Shown here: positions 3,091 to 24,702 of the stretch, piece after piece
Layout of the letters: every line of letters begins with the position of its first letter
Numbering within the stretch: position 1 is the first letter of the stretch
Assembly: GCA_030679975.1 (NCBI GenBank)
Contig: JAUXSL010000127.1
Coordinates: forward strand, 1 to 38,428
Source of the DNA: Actinomycetota bacterium
GTDB taxonomy: Bacteria; Actinomycetota; Aquicultoria; CAJVYJ01; JAUVQD01
Length of the DNA stretch: 38,428 nt
Direction of reading: 5' to 3'
Notes under the pieces: generated by a model
Databases searched by the model: none
Seen by the model: the letters and a program-made list of their open reading frames with translations, nothing else
Told to the model about the DNA's origin: nothing
Translations under genes and position numbers: made by a program

Positions 3091-3884
3091 AAGAGGGCGT
3101 TGGCGAGATTCGGCGGCTGGTTTTTTGTTATCACGTCGAACCGGTACCCCTGAGATTTTAAGAAGTCGATTATGACCGGCAGAGCGACCACGGTGTCCGC
3201 ATGGGTATCGTGCATCAGAATGATCGGCGGCGTGCCCGGCGGCAGAGCCGCCACCTGGGCCTGGACGTTGCCGATCATAGTCTGGGTGGTGGCGCCCGGT
3301 TCCGTATCTCCCGAATTTACCGTCCACAGCGTGGTGCGGTAACCGGTGGTCGGCATGACCTGATAGAGGGTGGCGTTGAAGTTACCGGCGGCGCCTCCGG
3401 GCGGCCGGGTTATTTTTGGCCTGATTCCGATAATGCTGTTGATCAGGTCCTCGTTCTGTTTCAGCGACCCTAAGTAACCGTCCGGGGAAGGCCCCCCGTA
3501 TAACTCGGCGTATCTGTGACTAAAAGTGTGGTTGCCGATCTGGTGGCCGTCATAATAAGTATTTAGAAGTATCTCCGGGTGGGTCTGCACTCTATATCCG
3601 ACCACAAAGAAAGTCGCTCTGACTTTGTAGCGTCTCAAGACCTCGAGGACCTGCGGCGTGTATGTCGCCTCCGGCCCGTCGTCAATGGTGAGATAAGCGA
3701 TTTTTGGCGGAGCCGGCGGCGGCGGGACCAAAGGGATCCGCCGGTCTTTGAGGGCGGTTCCCGCCGCGGACGTATATGCGCCCATCGACCACAGTCCGAC
3801 AACGATCAACGTCGCCAGGACAAATTGTTTAGTTCCCCCGCGCCCGCTTGTGAATTTCATCTTAACTACTTGGATATCTTTCAC
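3087..3884 (-). CDS. polysaccharide deacetylase (NodB domain)
   Basis: This is a membrane-anchored or secreted carbohydrate esterase family 4 enzyme that removes acetyl groups from peptidoglycan or another N-acetylated glycan. A basic N terminus and one hydrophobic segment (QFVLATLIVVGLWSMGAY) come first, then a Pro-rich linker (VPPPPAPP). The NodB domain follows, with motif 1 TIDDGPE near residue 66, the metal-binding HTFSH in GNHTFSH, R-P-P-G-G, and the late motif LMHDTHADT. The track uses a GTG start at 3884; an ATG at 3860 is equally possible, and neither has a strong ribosome site. It lies 28 bases behind the helicase gene in the same direction and is probably co-transcribed with it. Confidence 0.92.
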   Translation of the reverse strand: MKDIQVVKMKFTSGRGGTKQFVLATLIVVGLWSMGAYTSAAGTALKDRRIPLVPPPPAPPKIAYLTIDDGPEATYTPQVLEVLRRYKVRATFFVVGYRVQTHPEILLNTYYDGHQIGNHTFSHRYAELYGGPSPDGYLGSLKQNEDLINSIIGIRPKITRPPGGAAGNFNATLYQVMPTTGYRTTLWTVNSGDTEPGATTQTMIGNVQAQVAALPPGTPPIILMHDTHADTVVALPVIIDFLKSQGYRFDVITKNQPPNLANALF

Positions 3885-3912
3885 AAGCCGCGCCGCCTAA
3901 ACTAAAAGGGCG

Positions 3913-5097
3913 CTATTCCACAAAGGTCAGGGCGGCGCCGGTCTTATCGGCCCGTCCGGTTCGGCCGATCCGATGGACGTAATCCTCATATGTCTCCGGC
4001 AGATCGAAATTGATCACATGGGTTACGTTGTCGATATCCAAGCCCCTTGACGCGACGTCGGTGGCGAGCAAGGCCTGGATCTGGTTGTCCTTGAACTTAT
4101 TCAGCGCAAGTTGGCGCTGGCTTTGACTTTTATTTCCGTGAATAGACGCCACATTAAAACCGCGGGCGTGGAGCTGTTTCGATAATTTTTCCATGCCCCA
4201 TTTTGTCCGTCCAAAGACCAACACCTTGTCGAAACCATCTTTAATCAGTAGCTCGTGAAGGACTTCGATTTTTGCCCGGCCGTTGGTCTTAATAATATCT
4301 TGGTCCACATTTTCCGAGGCTTTCTCCGATTCGACGACCACAAAAACCGGGTCGACGGAAACGCTTCGCATTATATCTATTACCTTATCCGTCGTCGTCG
4401 CGGAAAAAAATAGCGAGTGGCGCTTTTCCGGTAAGCGGTCGACGATATGCGTTACGTCATGGATAAAACCCATATCGAGCATTCTATCCACTTCGTCCAA
4501 GACGATCGTGGAGAAATCGGCAAAATTAAGCTTTCTTCTCTGGTCCAGGTCCTTCAACCTTCCCGGGGTCCCGATGACGAAATGCGGTCTCTCTCTTAAG
4601 TCATCGATTTGACGGTTTATCGACGCTCCGCCGATGCAAAGAGCTCCGGACAACCTTAAGCCCCGTCCGAACAACTTCAGTTCGTCGTGGATCTGGGTCG
4701 CCAACTCGCGGGTGGGAGTGACGATTAAAACTCTGGAGCTGTAGTTATTGATGACTTTATCGATCAGCGGGATTAGAAACGCCGCCGTCTTGCCCGTTCC
4801 CGTATTGGCCGTCCCGACTACATCTTTGCCGGCCAGAATATGAGGAATGGCCTGGTCTTGGATGGGGGTCGGGTTGATGTATCCCCTGGCCCGCACGTTC
4901 GACTTTATTCGTTCATGGACCGGAAAATCATCAAACTTATGTGAGGACACATATTCGACCTTAGGCTGGTTCGGCACGCCTTTCTTCACTAAAGATGACG
5001 GGTCGAAAGACGTCTGCTTTTTTCTTTTTGCGGCAGGCCGTGGCTGGCTCCGGAACCGGTCGCGATTGTTCGAATTTGAGTACGCGTAACTTGACAT
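3913..5097 (-). CDS. DEAD-box ATP-dependent RNA helicase (DEVD variant)
   Basis: This 394-residue helicase should unwind RNA duplexes in ribosome assembly or mRNA turnover. A basic, Ser/Asn/Arg-rich tail of about 40 residues precedes the core. Visible motifs are the Q motif (PTPIQDQ), motif I (ANTGTGKT), Ia (PTRELA), GG, Ib (TPGR), motif II, III (SAT), V (ATDVASRGLDI) and VI (HRIGRTGR). Motif II reads DEVD rather than DEAD, a conservative change known in some family members. The RhlE/CshA-like core ends soon after motif VI with no RNA-binding tail. The track's TTG at 5103 lies only 4 bases from GAGG; the ATG at 5097 has about 10 bases and is preferred. Confidence 0.95.
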   Translation of the reverse strand: MSSYAYSNSNNRDRFRSQPRPAAKRKKQTSFDPSSLVKKGVPNQPKVEYVSSHKFDDFPVHERIKSNVRARGYINPTPIQDQAIPHILAGKDVVGTANTGTGKTAAFLIPLIDKVINNYSSRVLIVTPTRELATQIHDELKLFGRGLRLSGALCIGGASINRQIDDLRERPHFVIGTPGRLKDLDQRRKLNFADFSTIVLDEVDRMLDMGFIHDVTHIVDRLPEKRHSLFFSATTTDKVIDIMRSVSVDPVFVVVESEKASENVDQDIIKTNGRAKIEVLHELLIKDGFDKVLVFGRTKWGMEKLSKQLHARGFNVASIHGNKSQSQRQLALNKFKDNQIQALLATDVASRGLDIDNVTHVINFDLPETYEDYVHRIGRTGRADKTGAALTFVE

Positions 5098-19860: not shown

Positions 19861-20700
19861 TTAAGAGATGGCTTCCTGCTTCGAGTTTTCAGCTCCGAAT
19901 ACGACAACGCGGTTGCGTCCGCCTTCTTTAGCTCGATAAAGGGCTTCATCGGCCCGGTCTATGAGCTGCAGATCGTCGTCGGCATCGGTTGGGTAAGTGG
20001 CCACACCGGCGCTGATGGTGCATGTTCCGGTGCCGCTTGTGGCCCCGAAATCGCTGATCTCCACGCCGGCCCTGATGCGTTCGGCAACTTCCTCGGCCGC
20101 GCCGTGGCTGGTGTTGGGCAGCAGGATGGCGAATTCCTCGCCGCCGTAGCGGCTGACGATATCGACGCCGCGCACTTGCACTTTAAATATCTCCGCCATG
20201 TGCTTTAAAAGCTCGTTGCCTTTTTGGTGGCCGAATTTATCGTTGAAGGGCTTAAAGTAGTCGATATCGAGCATAATCAATGACAGCCGGCTGCCGAAAC
20301 GGTCGGCGCGCTGGCGCTCCTCGTCGAGGCGGTCGATGAAATAACTGTAGTTATGCAGGCCGGTCAGGCGATCGACCATTAAGAGACGACCGAGGTGTTC
20401 CTGTTGGAAATGCTGGCGCGACGCATACCAACCGATTACACCGGCCATCAAGGCCAGCCGGCTGTAGTCGAGCATCATGCCTGATGTGCTCGGAATAAAT
20501 TTCAGCCCGACGGCGATGGACGCGATAGCGCCTAAGGCGGCGCCGGGAAGATAGAACGCGAACGCGGCCAAGACTGTGAGGATTTCAAAGAGGTGCCACA
20601 CTTCTTGCTGCCGGCCCGGATAAACAAAAATCTGCACGAAGGCGACCGCGAAAAATCCTGCTATTATTGGGGCTAGAACAAAAAGTCTTTTTTTCTCCAT
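19861..20700 (-). CDS. membrane-bound diguanylate cyclase (GGDEF) with I-site
   Basis: About 279 residues. Four or five membrane helices fill the first 110 residues (FVLAPIIAGFFAVAFVQIFV and following), then a GGDEF domain makes cyclic di-GMP: DRLTGLHNYSYF, LIMLDIDYFKPFND and the active loop GGEEF. RGVD five residues before the active loop is the RxxD product-inhibition site. The track begins at 20751, but MEKKRLFVLAP from the ATG at 20700 is the more usual start; neither has a strong Shine-Dalgarno. It heads an operon with ROK kinase and MFS genes and is divergent from the Crp/Fnr regulator. Confidence 0.9.
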   Translation of the reverse strand: MEKKRLFVLAPIIAGFFAVAFVQIFVYPGRQQEVWHLFEILTVLAAFAFYLPGAALGAIASIAVGLKFIPSTSGMMLDYSRLALMAGVIGWYASRQHFQQEHLGRLLMVDRLTGLHNYSYFIDRLDEERQRADRFGSRLSLIMLDIDYFKPFNDKFGHQKGNELLKHMAEIFKVQVRGVDIVSRYGGEEFAILLPNTSHGAAEEVAERIRAGVEISDFGATSGTGTCTISAGVATYPTDADDDLQLIDRADEALYRAKEGGRNRVVVFGAENSKQEAIS

Positions 20701-20784
20701 GGCTGTTTCTTTGTTTTCAAAGGGATTAGTAGACTTAAGATATTGTATCATAAAGATTAAATCCTGGCTTAAGGAGTGTGTTTT

Positions 20785-21474
20785 TTGGATCAGGACTTAG
20801 CCAAAAAGCTGAAACAGACCTTTATCTTCTCTGAATTTACCGATGCCGAACTTCAATCGGTTACATCTCTCGTGAGTGAGCGGCTCTTTAAAAAGGGCGC
20901 CACGGTATTCCATGAAGGCCAGCCGGGCATCGCTTTCTATATCATCAAGAGCGGTCGCGTTAAGGTCTTTAAGCTGGCCGAAGACGGGCGAGAGTTGATC
21001 CTCGGGATTTTCGGCGACGGGGCCTTATTTGGTGATGTGCCGGTCTTTGACGGCGGACCTTACCCGGCGGGGGCCGCGACACTGGTGGATACCAAAGTCT
21101 ATTCGATAAATCGTGAAGATTTCGAGCGCTTGGTAACCGAGCATGCGGAGACGGCTCTGAAGATCATCAGGGTCTTAGGGCGGCGCTTGCGTCAAGCTCA
21201 CGGCTTCGTCATGGATATCGCCATGAAATCCGCCCCGCAGCGGCTCTCTTCGTTACTGCTGAAGCTGGTGGAAGAATACGGTGCTCAGGCGGAAGAAGGC
21301 CTGGTCCTCGATCTGCCCTTGACCCGCCGGGAGATAGCCGAGTTAATGGGCGTCTCGCGGGAGACCGCCATCCGCGAACTCTCCAAGTTCAGCCGGGCCG
21401 GCACTATCAAGCTCGACGGCAAACGCATAATCATCCTCGATGCCGCCAAACTCAGGCTGTGGTCGAAAGCGTGA
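20785..21474 (+). CDS. Crp/Fnr family transcriptional regulator
   Basis: About 229 residues. The N-terminal cyclic-nucleotide-binding fold spans residues 15-125, with GQPGIAFYIIKSGRVKVFK and the GALFGDVPVFDGG turn. A long dimer helix and a Crp-type winged HTH follow (LTRREIAELMGVSRETAIRELSKF). No Fnr-type N-terminal iron-sulfur cysteines are present, and the phosphate-binding cassette lacks the R-S of true CRP, so the ligand is unknown; heme or NO sensing as in DNR-like proteins is possible. GGAG at 20773 supports the TTG at 20785 rather than the track's GTG at 20776. It precedes a cluster of small Cys-rich genes that a Crp/Fnr-type dyad may control. Confidence 0.92.
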   Translation: MDQDLAKKLKQTFIFSEFTDAELQSVTSLVSERLFKKGATVFHEGQPGIAFYIIKSGRVKVFKLAEDGRELILGIFGDGALFGDVPVFDGGPYPAGAATLVDTKVYSINREDFERLVTEHAETALKIIRVLGRRLRQAHGFVMDIAMKSAPQRLSSLLLKLVEEYGAQAEEGLVLDLPLTRREIAELMGVSRETAIRELSKFSRAGTIKLDGKRIIILDAAKLRLWSKA

Positions 21475-21492
21475 CAAACCTCACTTAAACCA

Positions 21493-21534
21493 GTGACGTT
21501 CGTCATGTAAAATTATCCGCCGCAGTGGTAAAAA
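21493..21534 (+). promoter_or_regulatory. Crp/Fnr-type dyad and candidate promoter of the small redox cluster
   Basis: GTGAC-GTTC-GTCAT (21493-21506) has the 5-4-5 layout of Fnr/Dnr sites with a perfect TGAC/GTCA core. A weak -10 TAAAAA lies at 21529-21534; a start near 21541 would place the dyad centre at about -41.5, the class II activation position. A better TAAAAT at 21508-21513 would instead put the dyad over the -35. The motif is seen; its use is inferred. Confidence 0.5.
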
Positions 21535-21552
21535 TAGAAGAAAGAAATGTCT

Positions 21553-21644
21553 GGGGACACCATCAAGTATTTAATTTGAACTACAAACGCCGGCGTCCTT
21601 GCACAAATTTTAGTCGGGCATCATCGGATAAGGATGGTGTCCCC
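21553..21644 (+). mobile_element. 92-bp MITE-like element with 12-bp terminal inverted repeats
   Basis: GGGGACACCATC at 21553-21564 is matched exactly in reverse by GATGGTGTCCCC at 21633-21644. The 68-base interior has no ORF. Termini of the form TGGGGACACC occur at REP-associated and other small transposable elements, so this is probably a non-autonomous mobile unit. It lies in the leader of the small Cys-rich gene, between a candidate promoter and its Shine-Dalgarno. Confidence 0.65.
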
Positions 21645-21661
21645 ATCAAAGGAGAGACAAC

Positions 21662-21817
21662 ATGGAAGAATCAGCTGAAACTAAGCAGTGTTTTGTTTGC
21701 CAATCGAGCGGCGAGGATAGGGTCCTGCTCGCTTGCGAGCAGAAGGGCGAAGCTAAATGGGTCTGCGTCAGATGCCTGCCGCCGCTGATACATGAAATGG
21801 ATGGAGGGAGGCACTAA
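21662..21817 (+). CDS. 51-residue Cys-rich (zinc-ribbon-like) protein
   Basis: This gene is too short for the ORF track. The ATG follows AGGAGAG, and the product reads MEESAETKQCFVCQSS, then a middle with one Cys (LLACEQKGE), then WVCVRCLPPLIHEMDGG. Two CxxC pairs (CFVC and CVRC) about 26 residues apart plus a single Cys would make a small zinc ribbon or redox site. I recognise no named family. It ends one base before the DUF1858 start, so translation is coupled. The strong ribosome site, coupling and Cys pattern make it a real gene. It probably acts in the same process as its neighbours, perhaps redox or nitrosative-stress sensing, but this is inference. Confidence 0.75.
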   Translation: MEESAETKQCFVCQSSGEDRVLLACEQKGEAKWVCVRCLPPLIHEMDGGRH

Positions 21818-21818
21818 G

Positions 21819-22010
21819 ATGGAGATCACAAAAGAGATGACGATCGGGGAAGTGGTGCGGCAGTTCCCGGGTACGGTAGAAGTCTTTAACCGGCACGGGA
21901 TGGGTTGTCTGGGCTGCCCGGCGACCCAGTTTGAAAATGTCGAGCAGGGCGCTATCGTGCACGGCATCGATGTCGAGCAGTTGGTTAAAGATTTAAACGA
22001 AGCGGCGTGA
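21819..22010 (+). CDS. DUF1858 domain protein with CxxC motif
   Basis: This 63-residue protein is a stand-alone DUF1858 domain (MTIGEVVRQFPGTVEVFNRHGMGCLGCPA ... FENVEQGA...HGIDVEQLVKDLN). The GMGCLGC pair is the family signature, found as the N-terminal part of ScdA/YtfE-type iron-sulfur repair proteins and in many anaerobes near hybrid-cluster proteins. The track ORF starts at 21792 inside the previous gene; the ATG at 21819 with GGAGGGAGG upstream is correct. It lies one base after the preceding stop and 5 bases before the next start. A role in NO or redox stress fits the adjacent Crp/Fnr gene. Confidence 0.9.
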   Translation: MEITKEMTIGEVVRQFPGTVEVFNRHGMGCLGCPATQFENVEQGAIVHGIDVEQLVKDLNEAA

Positions 22011-22015
22011 CTTAG

Positions 22016-22504
22016 GTGTTGATCCTGGACATCGTCGTTCACTGGCTCCATCTGCTGGCGGCCTTTACCTGGGTCGGCGGTCTCATATTTGTGAATGTCG
22101 TCCTGACGCCGGCGATGCAGCCAAAGGGCATCCCCCCACAGTTTGTGAGGTTGATGGGGATGGAGCGCTTTCGGGCTTTTGCCTGGGGGAGTATTATTAT
22201 CCTGGTCATTACCGGCGTCTATAAGGCCGTCCAGACCGTGCCGGATATTTCGGATTTGACGACCAGCGCATACGGGTTGACCTTGTTGATAAAGATAACG
22301 GCGGTCGCGATGATGGTCGCGATCACCGTCGTCAATTCGATAGTCCTGCGCCGCCGGATAACGCAGGCTCCAGCCGGACCGGGCGGAACGCCGCCGGTGG
22401 AAATGCAGACCATGGGTAGGCGGTTAGTGATTTTATCCCGGCTCAATCTGGGTCTCGGCCTGCTGGTAGTGTTGCTGGCCACGATGTTGAAATTCGGGCT
22501 GTAG
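22016..22504 (+). CDS. CopD-like four-helix membrane protein
   Basis: About 162 residues with four hydrophobic helices (IVVHWLHLLAAFTWVGGLIFVNVV; FAWGSIIILVITGVYKAV; LLIKITAVAMMVAITVVNSIVL; LNLGLGLLVVLLATML). The motif HWLHLLAAFTWVGG is the heme- or copper-binding helix start seen in CopD and related cytochrome-b-like proteins, with two His in HWLH. Members of this group are annotated as copper resistance D or DUF4149-like proteins; a heme role is likely but unproved. The start may be GTG 22016 or TTG 22019. It follows DUF1858 by 5 bases, so it belongs to the same transcription unit. Confidence 0.8.
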   Translation: MLILDIVVHWLHLLAAFTWVGGLIFVNVVLTPAMQPKGIPPQFVRLMGMERFRAFAWGSIIILVITGVYKAVQTVPDISDLTTSAYGLTLLIKITAVAMMVAITVVNSIVLRRRITQAPAGPGGTPPVEMQTMGRRLVILSRLNLGLGLLVVLLATMLKFGL

Positions 22505-22519
22505 TAGAAGGTGATGTCG

Positions 22520-22753
22520 ATGGATAGAAGTTGTCCGGGCGCGGATAACGTAAAAATACCCGAACTTGAGATACGAGAATGTCCCAAGTGCGGCGGCGAG
22601 GTGGAGTTTTTCACCCGCGATAAGAAATCGACTTGCGCCGACTGCGGCGAGGTGGTCTTTCGGGAGGCCGGACCATCGTGTATCGACTGGTGCCCGGTGG
22701 CGTCGACTTGCTTTCCCGGTCTGGTAAAAGAAAAAGCGGCCCAGAAGAAATAA
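22520..22753 (+). CDS. zinc-ribbon protein with second Cys cluster
   Basis: A 77-residue protein whose middle is a zinc ribbon (CPKCGG ... CADCGE, two CxxC pairs). It ends with a further set, CIDWCPVASTC, that resembles small conserved proteins of anaerobes sometimes annotated as phosphohydrolase-associated. I do not know its biochemical role. AAGG at 22508 favours the ATG at 22520 over the GTG at 22511 used in the track. It closes the Crp/Fnr-linked cluster and points toward nrdJ, which runs on the other strand. In all, three of the four genes in this cluster encode CxxC-rich small proteins. Confidence 0.75.
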   Translation: MDRSCPGADNVKIPELEIRECPKCGGEVEFFTRDKKSTCADCGEVVFREAGPSCIDWCPVASTCFPGLVKEKAAQKK

Positions 22754-22926: not shown

Positions 22927-24702
22927 CTAAAAGGCGCACTCCCCGGCGGCGCACTCCCCGGCGTACTCCGCGCCGGCGCGAACCGGTTCCCTCCGTTTGC
23001 GGGACTTCTCGCCGCTGATATACAAGACCTGCGACCTCTTACTGCCATATCGGTAGACGGTTATACCTTTGCACTTCAATTCAAACGCTAATTTATAGAT
23101 GCGCGCGACGTCGTCGAGAGTCGCGTTCGCCGATAAGTTGACGGTCTTGGAGACCGCGTTGTCGGTCTGCTGTTGCCAGGCCGCCTGAACGCGCACGTGC
23201 CAATCGCCCGGAATGTCGAATGTGGTCAAAAACAGCTTTCGGATATCTTCCGGGATGATGTCAAAACTCTGAATGGAACCAGTCCGCGCTATCTCCTCGA
23301 TCAACGCCTCACTGTAAAAACCGCGCTCTTTTGCCAAGCGTTCGAAAATAGGGTTGACTTCCAACAACTCAAGATCGCCCATGGCTTCCCGCATGTAAGA
23401 GACGGCGAAGAGTGGCTCGATGCCGCTGCTGGTCCCGGCGATTATACTGATGGTCCCGGTCGGCGCCACAGTGGTGACCGTAGCGTTGCGCAGCTCAGGC
23501 AAGCCCTTCTCGGGCCACCAACTCAGTTTGAAATTTGGAAACGAGCCCCTGATGCCGGCCAACTCGGCGGAGAGCTGAAGGGCCTCGGCTTCGATAAAGC
23601 CGGCTATCTTAGCCGACAGCTCCAGCGCTTCTTCAGAGACATAGGAGATACCCAGGAGGATGAGCATCTCGGCAAAGCCCATAACGCCAAGGCCGATCTT
23701 GCGGTTAGCCAGCGTGATTTCGGTTATCTCCGGTATCGGGAGTTTGCCGGCATCGATGACATTGTCGAGAAAATGGACCGCCAGTCTCACGACCCGTCGC
23801 AGTTTCCCCCAGTTAACCGCGCCGTCAACGACCATTTCCGCTAGATTAACCGATCCGAGGTTGCACGATTCATAGGAAAGCAACGGCAGTTCGCCACAGG
23901 GGTTGGTGCTTTCAATCAGGCCGAGCCGGGCCAGCGGATGTCTCCGGTTGACCTCGTCGATGAATATCAGCCCCGGGTCACCTGTGCGCCACGCCATCGC
24001 GGTTATCAGGTCAAAGACCGCCTTGGCTTTCAGTTTTCTTACCTTCCGATGGGTTCGCGGGTTGATCAGCCAGTACTCTTCATCCCGCTCGACCGCCTTC
24101 ATAAAACTATCAGTCACCGCGACCGAAATATTGAAATTCGCCAGCGTATCTTCCTTCTCTTTAGCGGTGACGAAGTCGATGATGTCGGGGTGATCCACGG
24201 ACAAGATGCCCATATTGGCGCCCCGACGGCGCCCGCCTTGCTTTATGATCTCGGTCGCCGCGTCATAGATCTTCATAAAGGAAATGGGCCCCGAAGCTAC
24301 TCCGGCGGTGGTTTTGACTGCATCGCCGTTTGGCCGGATGCGGCTGAAAGAAAAACCGGTGCCGCCGCCTGATTTATGGACTATCGCCATGTTTTTTAAA
24401 GAGTCGAAAATCCCGTCGATAGAATCTTCTATCGGCAGGACAAAGCAGGCCGACAGTTGACCTATCTCGGTGCCGGCATTCATCAGGGTCGGGGAATTCG
24501 GTAGAAACTCGCGGGCGATCATAAGCTGAAAGAAGGCGGCTTCGGATTCCAGCGCGTCTTGACCAAACCGCGTATCGACGGCGGCCACGACTTTAGCTAC
24601 CCGTTCAAACAGCTGTTTTGGCGTTTCGATGACGCGACCGTCATCGTCTTTTAGCAAGTAACGAGCACCGAGCACCTTGAGCGCGTTAGCGGTTAGTTTC
24701 AT
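22927..24702 (-). CDS. nrdJ: class II (adenosylcobalamin-dependent) ribonucleotide reductase, short C terminus
   Basis: A 591-residue enzyme that makes deoxyribonucleotides with a B12-derived radical and so needs no oxygen. The active site is intact: the first redox Cys in SACFVLP (residue 86), NPCGE with the thiyl-radical Cys (269) and its Glu, the partner Cys in SCNLGSVNL (280), and PTGTISIIAGTSSGIEP. Many relatives end in a zinc-ribbon tail with EGC..C..CGYSKC; here the tail after YRYGSKRSQVLYI is short and ends AGECAAGECAF. The final C584-x4-C589 has the spacing of reductant shuttles. It is built by a perfect 15-bp duplication. No cobalamin riboswitch lies in the 53-base gap upstream; the TPR gene is co-directional. 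Confidence 0.93.
   Translation of the reverse strand: MKLTANALKVLGARYLLKDDDGRVIETPKQLFERVAKVVAAVDTRFGQDALESEAAFFQLMIAREFLPNSPTLMNAGTEIGQLSACFVLPIEDSIDGIFDSLKNMAIVHKSGGGTGFSFSRIRPNGDAVKTTAGVASGPISFMKIYDAATEIIKQGGRRRGANMGILSVDHPDIIDFVTAKEKEDTLANFNISVAVTDSFMKAVERDEEYWLINPRTHRKVRKLKAKAVFDLITAMAWRTGDPGLIFIDEVNRRHPLARLGLIESTNPCGELPLLSYESCNLGSVNLAEMVVDGAVNWGKLRRVVRLAVHFLDNVIDAGKLPIPEITEITLANRKIGLGVMGFAEMLILLGISYVSEEALELSAKIAGFIEAEALQLSAELAGIRGSFPNFKLSWWPEKGLPELRNATVTTVAPTGTISIIAGTSSGIEPLFAVSYMREAMGDLELLEVNPIFERLAKERGFYSEALIEEIARTGSIQSFDIIPEDIRKLFLTTFDIPGDWHVRVQAAWQQQTDNAVSKTVNLSANATLDDVARIYKLAFELKCKGITVYRYGSKRSQVLYISGEKSRKRREPVRAGAEYAGECAAGECAF
22933..22962 (-). repeat. 15-bp perfect tandem duplication in the nrdJ 3' end
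   Basis: GGCGCACTCCCCGGC occurs twice head to tail (22933-22947, 22948-22962 on the plus strand). Read as nrdJ codons it encodes AGECA twice, giving the terminal cysteine pair. A degenerate third unit (GTACTCC) follows. Confidence 0.85.

Follow-up and report, generated by a model that had tools for sequence, protein, structure and literature searches.

The window, a stretch of 38,428 nucleotides that makes up contig C10 of a genome (G000) from an uncultured actinobacterium, carries between 20785 and 22753 a cluster in which the gene for a Crp/Fnr-superfamily regulator (crp) is followed by four genes for small proteins, here called Cys51, DUF1858, CopD-like and ZnR (zinc ribbon). A preliminary description of this DNA had noticed the regulator and the four small proteins behind it, and all five genes were confirmed as open reading frames (ORFs) on the plus strand (Table 1). 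The genome comprises 1.76 Mb in 127 contigs and is estimated to be 96% complete; it is a draft metagenome-assembled genome (MAG), and the use of draft MAGs limits the conclusions below. Its gene content, which includes hybrid cluster protein (HCP) and CO dehydrogenase (CODH), suggests an anaerobic life for the host.

The preliminary description had called for a gene-neighbourhood survey of these families. The order crp-Cys51-DUF1858-CopD-ZnR was found again in three genomes of the same family as G000 (G001, G002 and G003) and in two of the same order (G005 and G006), and therefore the cluster is not a product of chance. In the G005 copy one DUF3422 gene is inserted 5' of ZnR, and in G006 crp is truncated by the contig end. 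G004, which is 75% complete, gave no match to Crp or ZnR.

Table 1. Positions, within the window, of the genes and regulatory features of the crp-Cys51-DUF1858-CopD-ZnR locus
Feature	Position	Strand	Remarks
Crp/Fnr-superfamily regulator (crp)	20785..21474	+	TTG start agrees with ortholog starts
Operator 1	21471..21484		GTGACAAACCTCAC; overlaps crp stop codon; conserved in all six orthologous gaps
Operator 2	21493..21506		GTGACGTTCGTCAT; 22 bp from operator 1
Inferred -10 hexamer TAAAAA	21529..21534	+	Centre 32.0 bp from operator 2 centre (class II spacing)
Inverted-repeat element, 94 nt	21552..21645		Perfect 13-nt inverted ends, TGGGGACACCATC...GATGGTGTCCCCA; in leader
Cys51	21662..21817	+	CxxC...CVRCLPPLIH; homologous to C-terminal domain of hcp-linked ferredoxin FrdX
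DUF1858 / TIGR03980 protein (GMGCLGCP)	21819..22010	+	Above Pfam and TIGR03980 cut-offs
CopD-like four-helix membrane protein	22016..22504	+	PF05425; H12 conserved across CopD-like proteins
ZnR zinc ribbon	about 22514..22753	+	C22, C25, C40, C43; extra C6, C55, C59, C65 (residues numbered from 22517)

The regulator has the CRP/FNR fold, with a cyclic nucleotide (cNMP)-binding domain (PF00027, 1.4e-25) and a Crp-type helix-turn-helix (PF13545, 1.3e-18). It contains no cysteine when read from the TTG at 20785, bearing out the earlier statement that the iron-sulfur (Fe-S) cysteines of FNR are absent. In Escherichia coli CRP, cyclic AMP (cAMP) is contacted by Glu, Arg and Ser residues of the phosphate-binding cassette. 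The regulator does not have these contacts; the position of the cassette reads FGDVPVFDGGPYPA, an atypical cNMP cassette that is invariant in the orthologs, and because this sequence occupies the place of the cAMP cassette, cAMP appears unlikely as the ligand. The recognition helix, SRETAIRE, carries a CRP-type R/E pair (R180/E181 type), and together with the operators described below it agrees with the known HcpR type, in which R180/E181 goes with TGTGA-N6-TCACA. The R/E pair was tied to TGTGA sites by Rodionov et al., as in Desulfovibrio HcpR (PMC1274295).

At all six orthologous loci the DNA that separates crp from Cys51 begins with two dyads of the form GTGA-N6-YCA, 22-23 bp apart (GTGA-N6-TCA and 22 bp in the window), the first of which overlaps or closely trails the crp stop codon. 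Across seven whole genomes the tandem-dyad pattern was confined to these six gaps and one other place, contig C72 of G005 (G005:C72; read on both strands), while the reversed control gave 0. Each of the six gaps also has a -10-like hexamer (at least 4 of 6 positions of TATAAT) with its centre 32.0 bp away from that of operator 2, and in every one of them this hexamer is the best or joint-best of the region scanned. Since the site in class II CRP promoters lies at -41.5, the 32.0-bp spacing corresponds to class II activator geometry. The same offset recurs at an NnrS operon of G005, before the hcp genes of G000 and G001, and at a gene for a NapH-type membrane ferredoxin in G001 and G003; the 22-bp tandem with 32-bp spacing is also found in a distant family, at four Crp-Cys51 loci, and at a Crp-CODH locus of G012. 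In total, the -10 offset is identical in 16 of the 16 promoters of tandem type that were examined.

This is not the arrangement that had been expected from the preliminary description, which placed an Fnr-like dyad in front of crp. That dyad does not rise above shuffled sequence (P 0.55 for FNR, 0.83 for CRP). The FNR operator TTGAT-N4-ATCAA scored no better than shuffles either upstream of crp or in the gap, and none of the dyads upstream of crp exceeds shuffled sequence; the conserved dyads are of CRP type and are located behind crp, ahead of Cys51. The genes had also been described as all tightly spaced. This does not hold between crp and Cys51, where 187 nt accommodate the operators and a 94-nt inverted-repeat insertion.

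The 94-nt element is absent from the crp-Cys51 gaps of the relatives and accounts for the greater length of the gap in the window. No second copy of the full element was found in the genome; elements of about 90 nt with inverted ends of the GGGGACACCATC/GATGGTGTCCCC type occupy four places in G000, of which the three further ones (C9:7208-7298, C66:2265-2351 and C102:9460-9551) have other cores. Placed downstream of the inferred promoter and upstream of Cys51, the element could form a folded structure in the leader (folding z -2.0). An Rfam scan of the window returned tRNAs only, and thus no known riboswitch in the leader.

A search with the pattern of operator 2 plus the -10 hexamer gave two matches only in G000, one at the small-gene operon and one at C87:3739-3780 (minus strand), before hcp; reversed controls gave 0 in G000 and 1 across all seven genomes. 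The hcp gene lies on a different contig from the regulator. Co-occurrence of PF03063 was uninformative for HCP, as it counts CO dehydrogenases too, and TIGR01703 was used on the G000 copy instead (607.6 bits). Only a single Crp-like protein was detected in G000, though a very divergent one could escape the search, and it is therefore likely to regulate both the small-gene operon and hcp. In G001, hcp has the same promoter arrangement with a fuller tandem, and the NapH-type ferredoxin gene of G001 and G003 carries the same promoter type. Operators before hcp and FrdX-type genes, as expected of an HcpR, can thus be recognized by sequence, in front of the hcp genes of both G000 and G001 and in front of the Cys51 operon. 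We discounted the pattern matches at G001:C177 and G003:C204, which lie inside an ABC-transporter gene, and a match in G004 that lacks a convincing downstream gene. The G000 hcp stands directly behind a candidate 5S rRNA gene (L210, about 3800-3940).

The NnrS operon at G005:C72 stands behind perfect tandem CRP-type operators and has a copper/heavy-metal-type ATPase upstream. Its genes (L072, 2965-5756) encode, in order, a DUF1858-like protein, an NnrS/COX1-like protein that ends in a DUF1858 domain, a ZnR and a hemerythrin-DUF2249 protein. Elsewhere on this contig, the translation of 143-457 begins with MIRRPPRSTLFPYTTLFRS, typical of Illumina adapter read-through, and the contig end is probably an artefact.

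The 51-residue Cys-rich protein that had been noticed behind the regulator has matches in 32 of 397 genomes of the phylum. Many of these matches are the C-terminal 38-39 residues of a ferredoxin of about 128 amino acids that adjoins hcp, and which we name FrdX from this context; the order Crp-ferredoxin-hcp occurs in L191, and the ferredoxin lies beside hcp in L192, L204 and L208 as well. In a small local search, a Cys51 hidden Markov model (HMM) recognizes the FrdX C-termini with E values of 5e-12 to 3e-19; per genome, the values are 1e-9 to 1e-15. Cys51 therefore has the CxxC...CxRCLPxLIHG domain of FrdX, while the N-terminal [4Fe-4S] ferredoxin domain is absent. Crp followed by a stand-alone Cys51 was also found in G360, G062, G255 and G389, and in three of these four a COX1-like membrane protein of about 149-168 amino acids clearly follows. 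In G038 the order is COX1-like-Cys51-CopD-CopD.

The DUF1858 assignment, first made from the motif GMGCLGC, was confirmed by scores of 97.3 bits on TIGR03980 (cut-off 44.95) and 77.3 on the Pfam family (cut-off 32.2), and the CxxC is present. TIGR03980 bears the title 'hybrid cluster protein-associated redox disulfide domain'. The earlier suggestion that DUF1858 is the N-terminal part of proteins that repair damage by nitric oxide (NO) needs correction, since the N-terminus of ScdA/RIC is the related domain ScdA_N, on which the window protein scores 26.2 bits against a cut-off of 32.5; it has no hemerythrin domain. When viral contigs were searched with the DUF1858 protein, no match was obtained. 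In Bradyrhizobium, a DUF1858 gene adjoining nnrR is strongly NnrR-dependent (cited Bradyrhizobium paper).

The third small protein is CopD-like, as had been proposed, with 62 bits on PF05425 (cut-off 32.1), but it misses the cut-off of the CopD equivalog NF033808 (59.9 versus 195 bits). The HWLH sequence seen in it was rejected as a paired-His heme motif: its second His, H12, is common to all 16 CopD-like proteins compared, as are G21, G22 and K93, whereas H9, the first, is not conserved. M49 is confined to the subfamily of the window protein, which is also the only one with invariant M47 and M100. The predicted model has four long helices (predicted local distance difference test, pLDDT, 73), and neither this model nor that of ZnR gave a confident fold match in the PDB.

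ZnR is a zinc ribbon with an extra Cys cluster, as the preliminary description had it, and searches of Pfam, NCBIfam and PHROGs placed it in no named family beyond generic zinc ribbons. In its model (pLDDT 82) the ribbon is joined by a C-terminal helical part holding C55, C59 and C65, with C6 near the N-terminus, and a second four-Cys site made of these residues is a plausible candidate. We found 107 relatives in named genomes of many phyla, including Chloroflexota, Omnitrophota, Desulfobacterota and archaea. Neighbours within 1.5 kb were compared with those at 4.5-8 kb, which cover similar amounts of DNA, although the loci are not phylogenetically independent. FrdX-like ferredoxin (42 near versus 2 far), Crp (15 versus 0), HCP (11 versus 0), flavin reductase (12 versus 2) and Rrf2 (9 versus 1) are concentrated near ZnR; the excess is weaker for flavodiiron protein (FDP, 7 versus 4), rubrerythrin (7 versus 2), superoxide reductase (SOR, 5 versus 3) and P-type ATPase (7 versus 1). 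Three of the four small families (Cys51, DUF1858 and ZnR) are independently linked to hcp. By eye, we also recognized a ZnR fused to a low-molecular-weight phosphatase/arsenate-reductase-like domain (L121, 7944-8606), and ZnR of another family of the class beside a ferritin-like protein (L067, 8267-9908; L070; L071), with an encapsulin-like protein adjoining it in L067.

Gene order, operators, spacing and family links are read directly from the DNA; activation, NO as signal and what the small proteins do are inferred. We think it reasonably likely that an HcpR-like Crp/Fnr activator controls an anaerobic regulon for nitrosative and redox defence. As the regulator appears to activate both the four small proteins and the NO-removing HCP, the former are probably unstudied helpers in defence against NO or related redox damage. 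In such a scheme NO or a related redox signal, and not cAMP, would activate the regulator, which would bind both operators and recruit RNA polymerase from -41.5, raising four accessory proteins along with HCP, a reductase of NO or hydroxylamine. Cys51 and DUF1858 could be small cytoplasmic thiol or metal proteins that act as partners to HCP or to damaged Fe-S proteins, ZnR a second thiol or metal carrier, and the CopD-like protein a membrane partner for metal or electron transfer, in place of the COX1/NnrS-like proteins of related loci. We favour NO as the probable signal for two reasons. The genes linked to the promoter encode HCP, NnrS, hemerythrin and a membrane ferredoxin; and in Clostridioides difficile NO induces hcp and frdX, which are needed for NO resistance and whose knock-downs are NO-sensitive (PMC12915319).

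The compact redox or NO-response module of the preliminary description thus survives in its outline, through the conserved order, the two-operator promoter that also precedes hcp, the FrdX/HCP linkage of three small families, and a relative's NnrS-DUF1858-hemerythrin operon under the same promoter. The FNR operator and its position, the repair-protein N-terminus and the paired-His heme do not. Several points weigh against our interpretation. Taken singly the -10 hexamers are weak, most of them at 4/6, and the left side of operator 1 before the G000 hcp is poor. In a tree of 32 Crps from the genomes surveyed, the regulator clusters with moderate support (85/74) with its orthologs, a CODH-linked Crp of G012 and Cys51/COX1-linked Crps, and those Crps of the same class that are linked to hcp fall into a separate clade with SET helices and the site TTGAC-N4-GTCAA / TTGACTTAAGTCAA. 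The regulator may therefore be called HcpR-like by its targets and site type, and membership among HcpR orthologs does not follow from the tree. Its nearest relative outside the order, at 51% identity, is the G012 protein, whose gene precedes a CO dehydrogenase-type gene (L242, G012:C14, 3487-6165). The CopD-like protein has no direct link to NO, and ZnR also adjoins genes for defence against O2 and reactive oxygen species (ROS).

A more specific proposal, which we put forward only tentatively, is that the four small proteins form a hitherto unrecognized accessory unit of HCP, feeding electrons to HCP and other Fe-S proteins or repairing them under NO, and that their regulator belongs to a Crp clade that differs from known HcpR and acts at tandem class I/II promoters. 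Alternatively, the same architecture could answer to O2 or reactive-oxygen stress, with HCP, ZnR and DUF1858 acting in general Fe-S and redox repair. Desulfoferrodoxin, rubrerythrins, flavodiiron proteins, flavin reductase-rubredoxin and encapsulin/ferritin-like genes among the ZnR neighbours would fit this, but the enrichment of SOR and FDP is weak and the operator-controlled genes, hcp, NnrS, hemerythrin and membrane ferredoxin, include none of the classic ROS genes; we regard this as unlikely, if the most serious competitor to NO defence.

More doubtful still is a CooA-like regulator sensing CO or one-carbon metabolism, with the small genes serving CODH or Fe-S metabolism. The G012 Crp has the same tandem operators and -10 spacing before its CODH gene, and G000 encodes CODH-like genes, but the matches of the promoter pattern in G000 are at hcp and the small-gene operon, not at CODH. 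CooA recognizes TGTCG-N6-CGACA and binds heme through Cys and His ligands, and neither the site nor the ligands were seen here. Slightly less probable again is a copper- or metal-homeostasis operon built around the CopD-like protein, as could be imagined from its CopD domain, the subfamily-specific M47, M49 and M100, and P-type ATPases near some ZnR loci, including those of G005 and G006. Against it, the equivalog cut-off is missed, no copper gene was found under the operator, and COX1/NnrS-like proteins replace CopD in related Crp-Cys51 loci. That the four small genes are unrelated chance neighbours, as their shortness, common strand and draft MAG contigs might suggest, is barely credible and already refuted by an order kept in six genomes and an operator architecture kept beyond the class.

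Two other genes flank the cluster, both on the minus strand. A membrane GGDEF protein gene (19861-20751) is divergent to crp, an adjacency kept in four relatives; translation probably begins at ATG 20700 and not at 20751. Downstream, a B12-dependent ribonucleotide reductase (22927-24702) is without the extra N-terminal part (start MGTVEKVVKRDGRIVLFDEEKI) of the 698-amino-acid G003 ortholog (L057, 5441-7537); no upstream open frame restores it.

The locus bears on the electron supply of HCP in strict anaerobes and on the roles of FrdX, DUF1858 and their small companions. It offers four tiny proteins that a shared promoter defines as a set, and each of them can be expressed and tested alone; the C-terminal domain of FrdX is naturally split off here, and the ZnR family, which occurs in many phyla, is tied to the same response.

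Several known systems resemble parts of this locus. The window protein shares with CopD/PcoD the PF05425 domain, four helices and the conserved H12, but it misses the equivalog cut-off and no copper context was found under the tandem-operator promoter. The DUF1858 protein matches TIGR03980/DUF1858 proteins (PDB 2k53, 2k5e) over its full length and differs from them in its four-gene operon setting. Similarity to the ScdA/YtfE RIC proteins is limited to a distant, below-cut-off resemblance to ScdA_N, and hemerythrin occurs only in the related G005 operon. In that operon, a paralogous one behind the same operators, NnrS is fused to DUF1858, recalling the NnrS and NnrR/DNR systems, and DUF1858 is an NnrR target in Bradyrhizobium; however, the window is without NnrS, and its sites are of CRP type, not the TTGCGC-type NnrR boxes of the Bradyrhizobium paper. 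Closest is the HcpR-FrdX-Hcp regulon (PMC1274295; in C. difficile, PMC12915319, where the exact function of FrdX is said to remain unclear), with its Crp/Fnr activator, its targets hcp and an FrdX-derived domain, and, in Desulfovibrio, TGTGA-N6-TCACA sites with matching helix residues. Unlike that regulon, the window genome has hcp on a separate contig, tandem sites 22 bp apart, a regulator of a different clade from the hcp-linked Crps of its class, and an operon in which the C-terminal domain of FrdX stands without its ferredoxin beside DUF1858, CopD-like and ZnR. The module, in which the role of the CopD-like protein is uncertain, is real and conserved, and differs from the known HcpR-type response as a variant of it.

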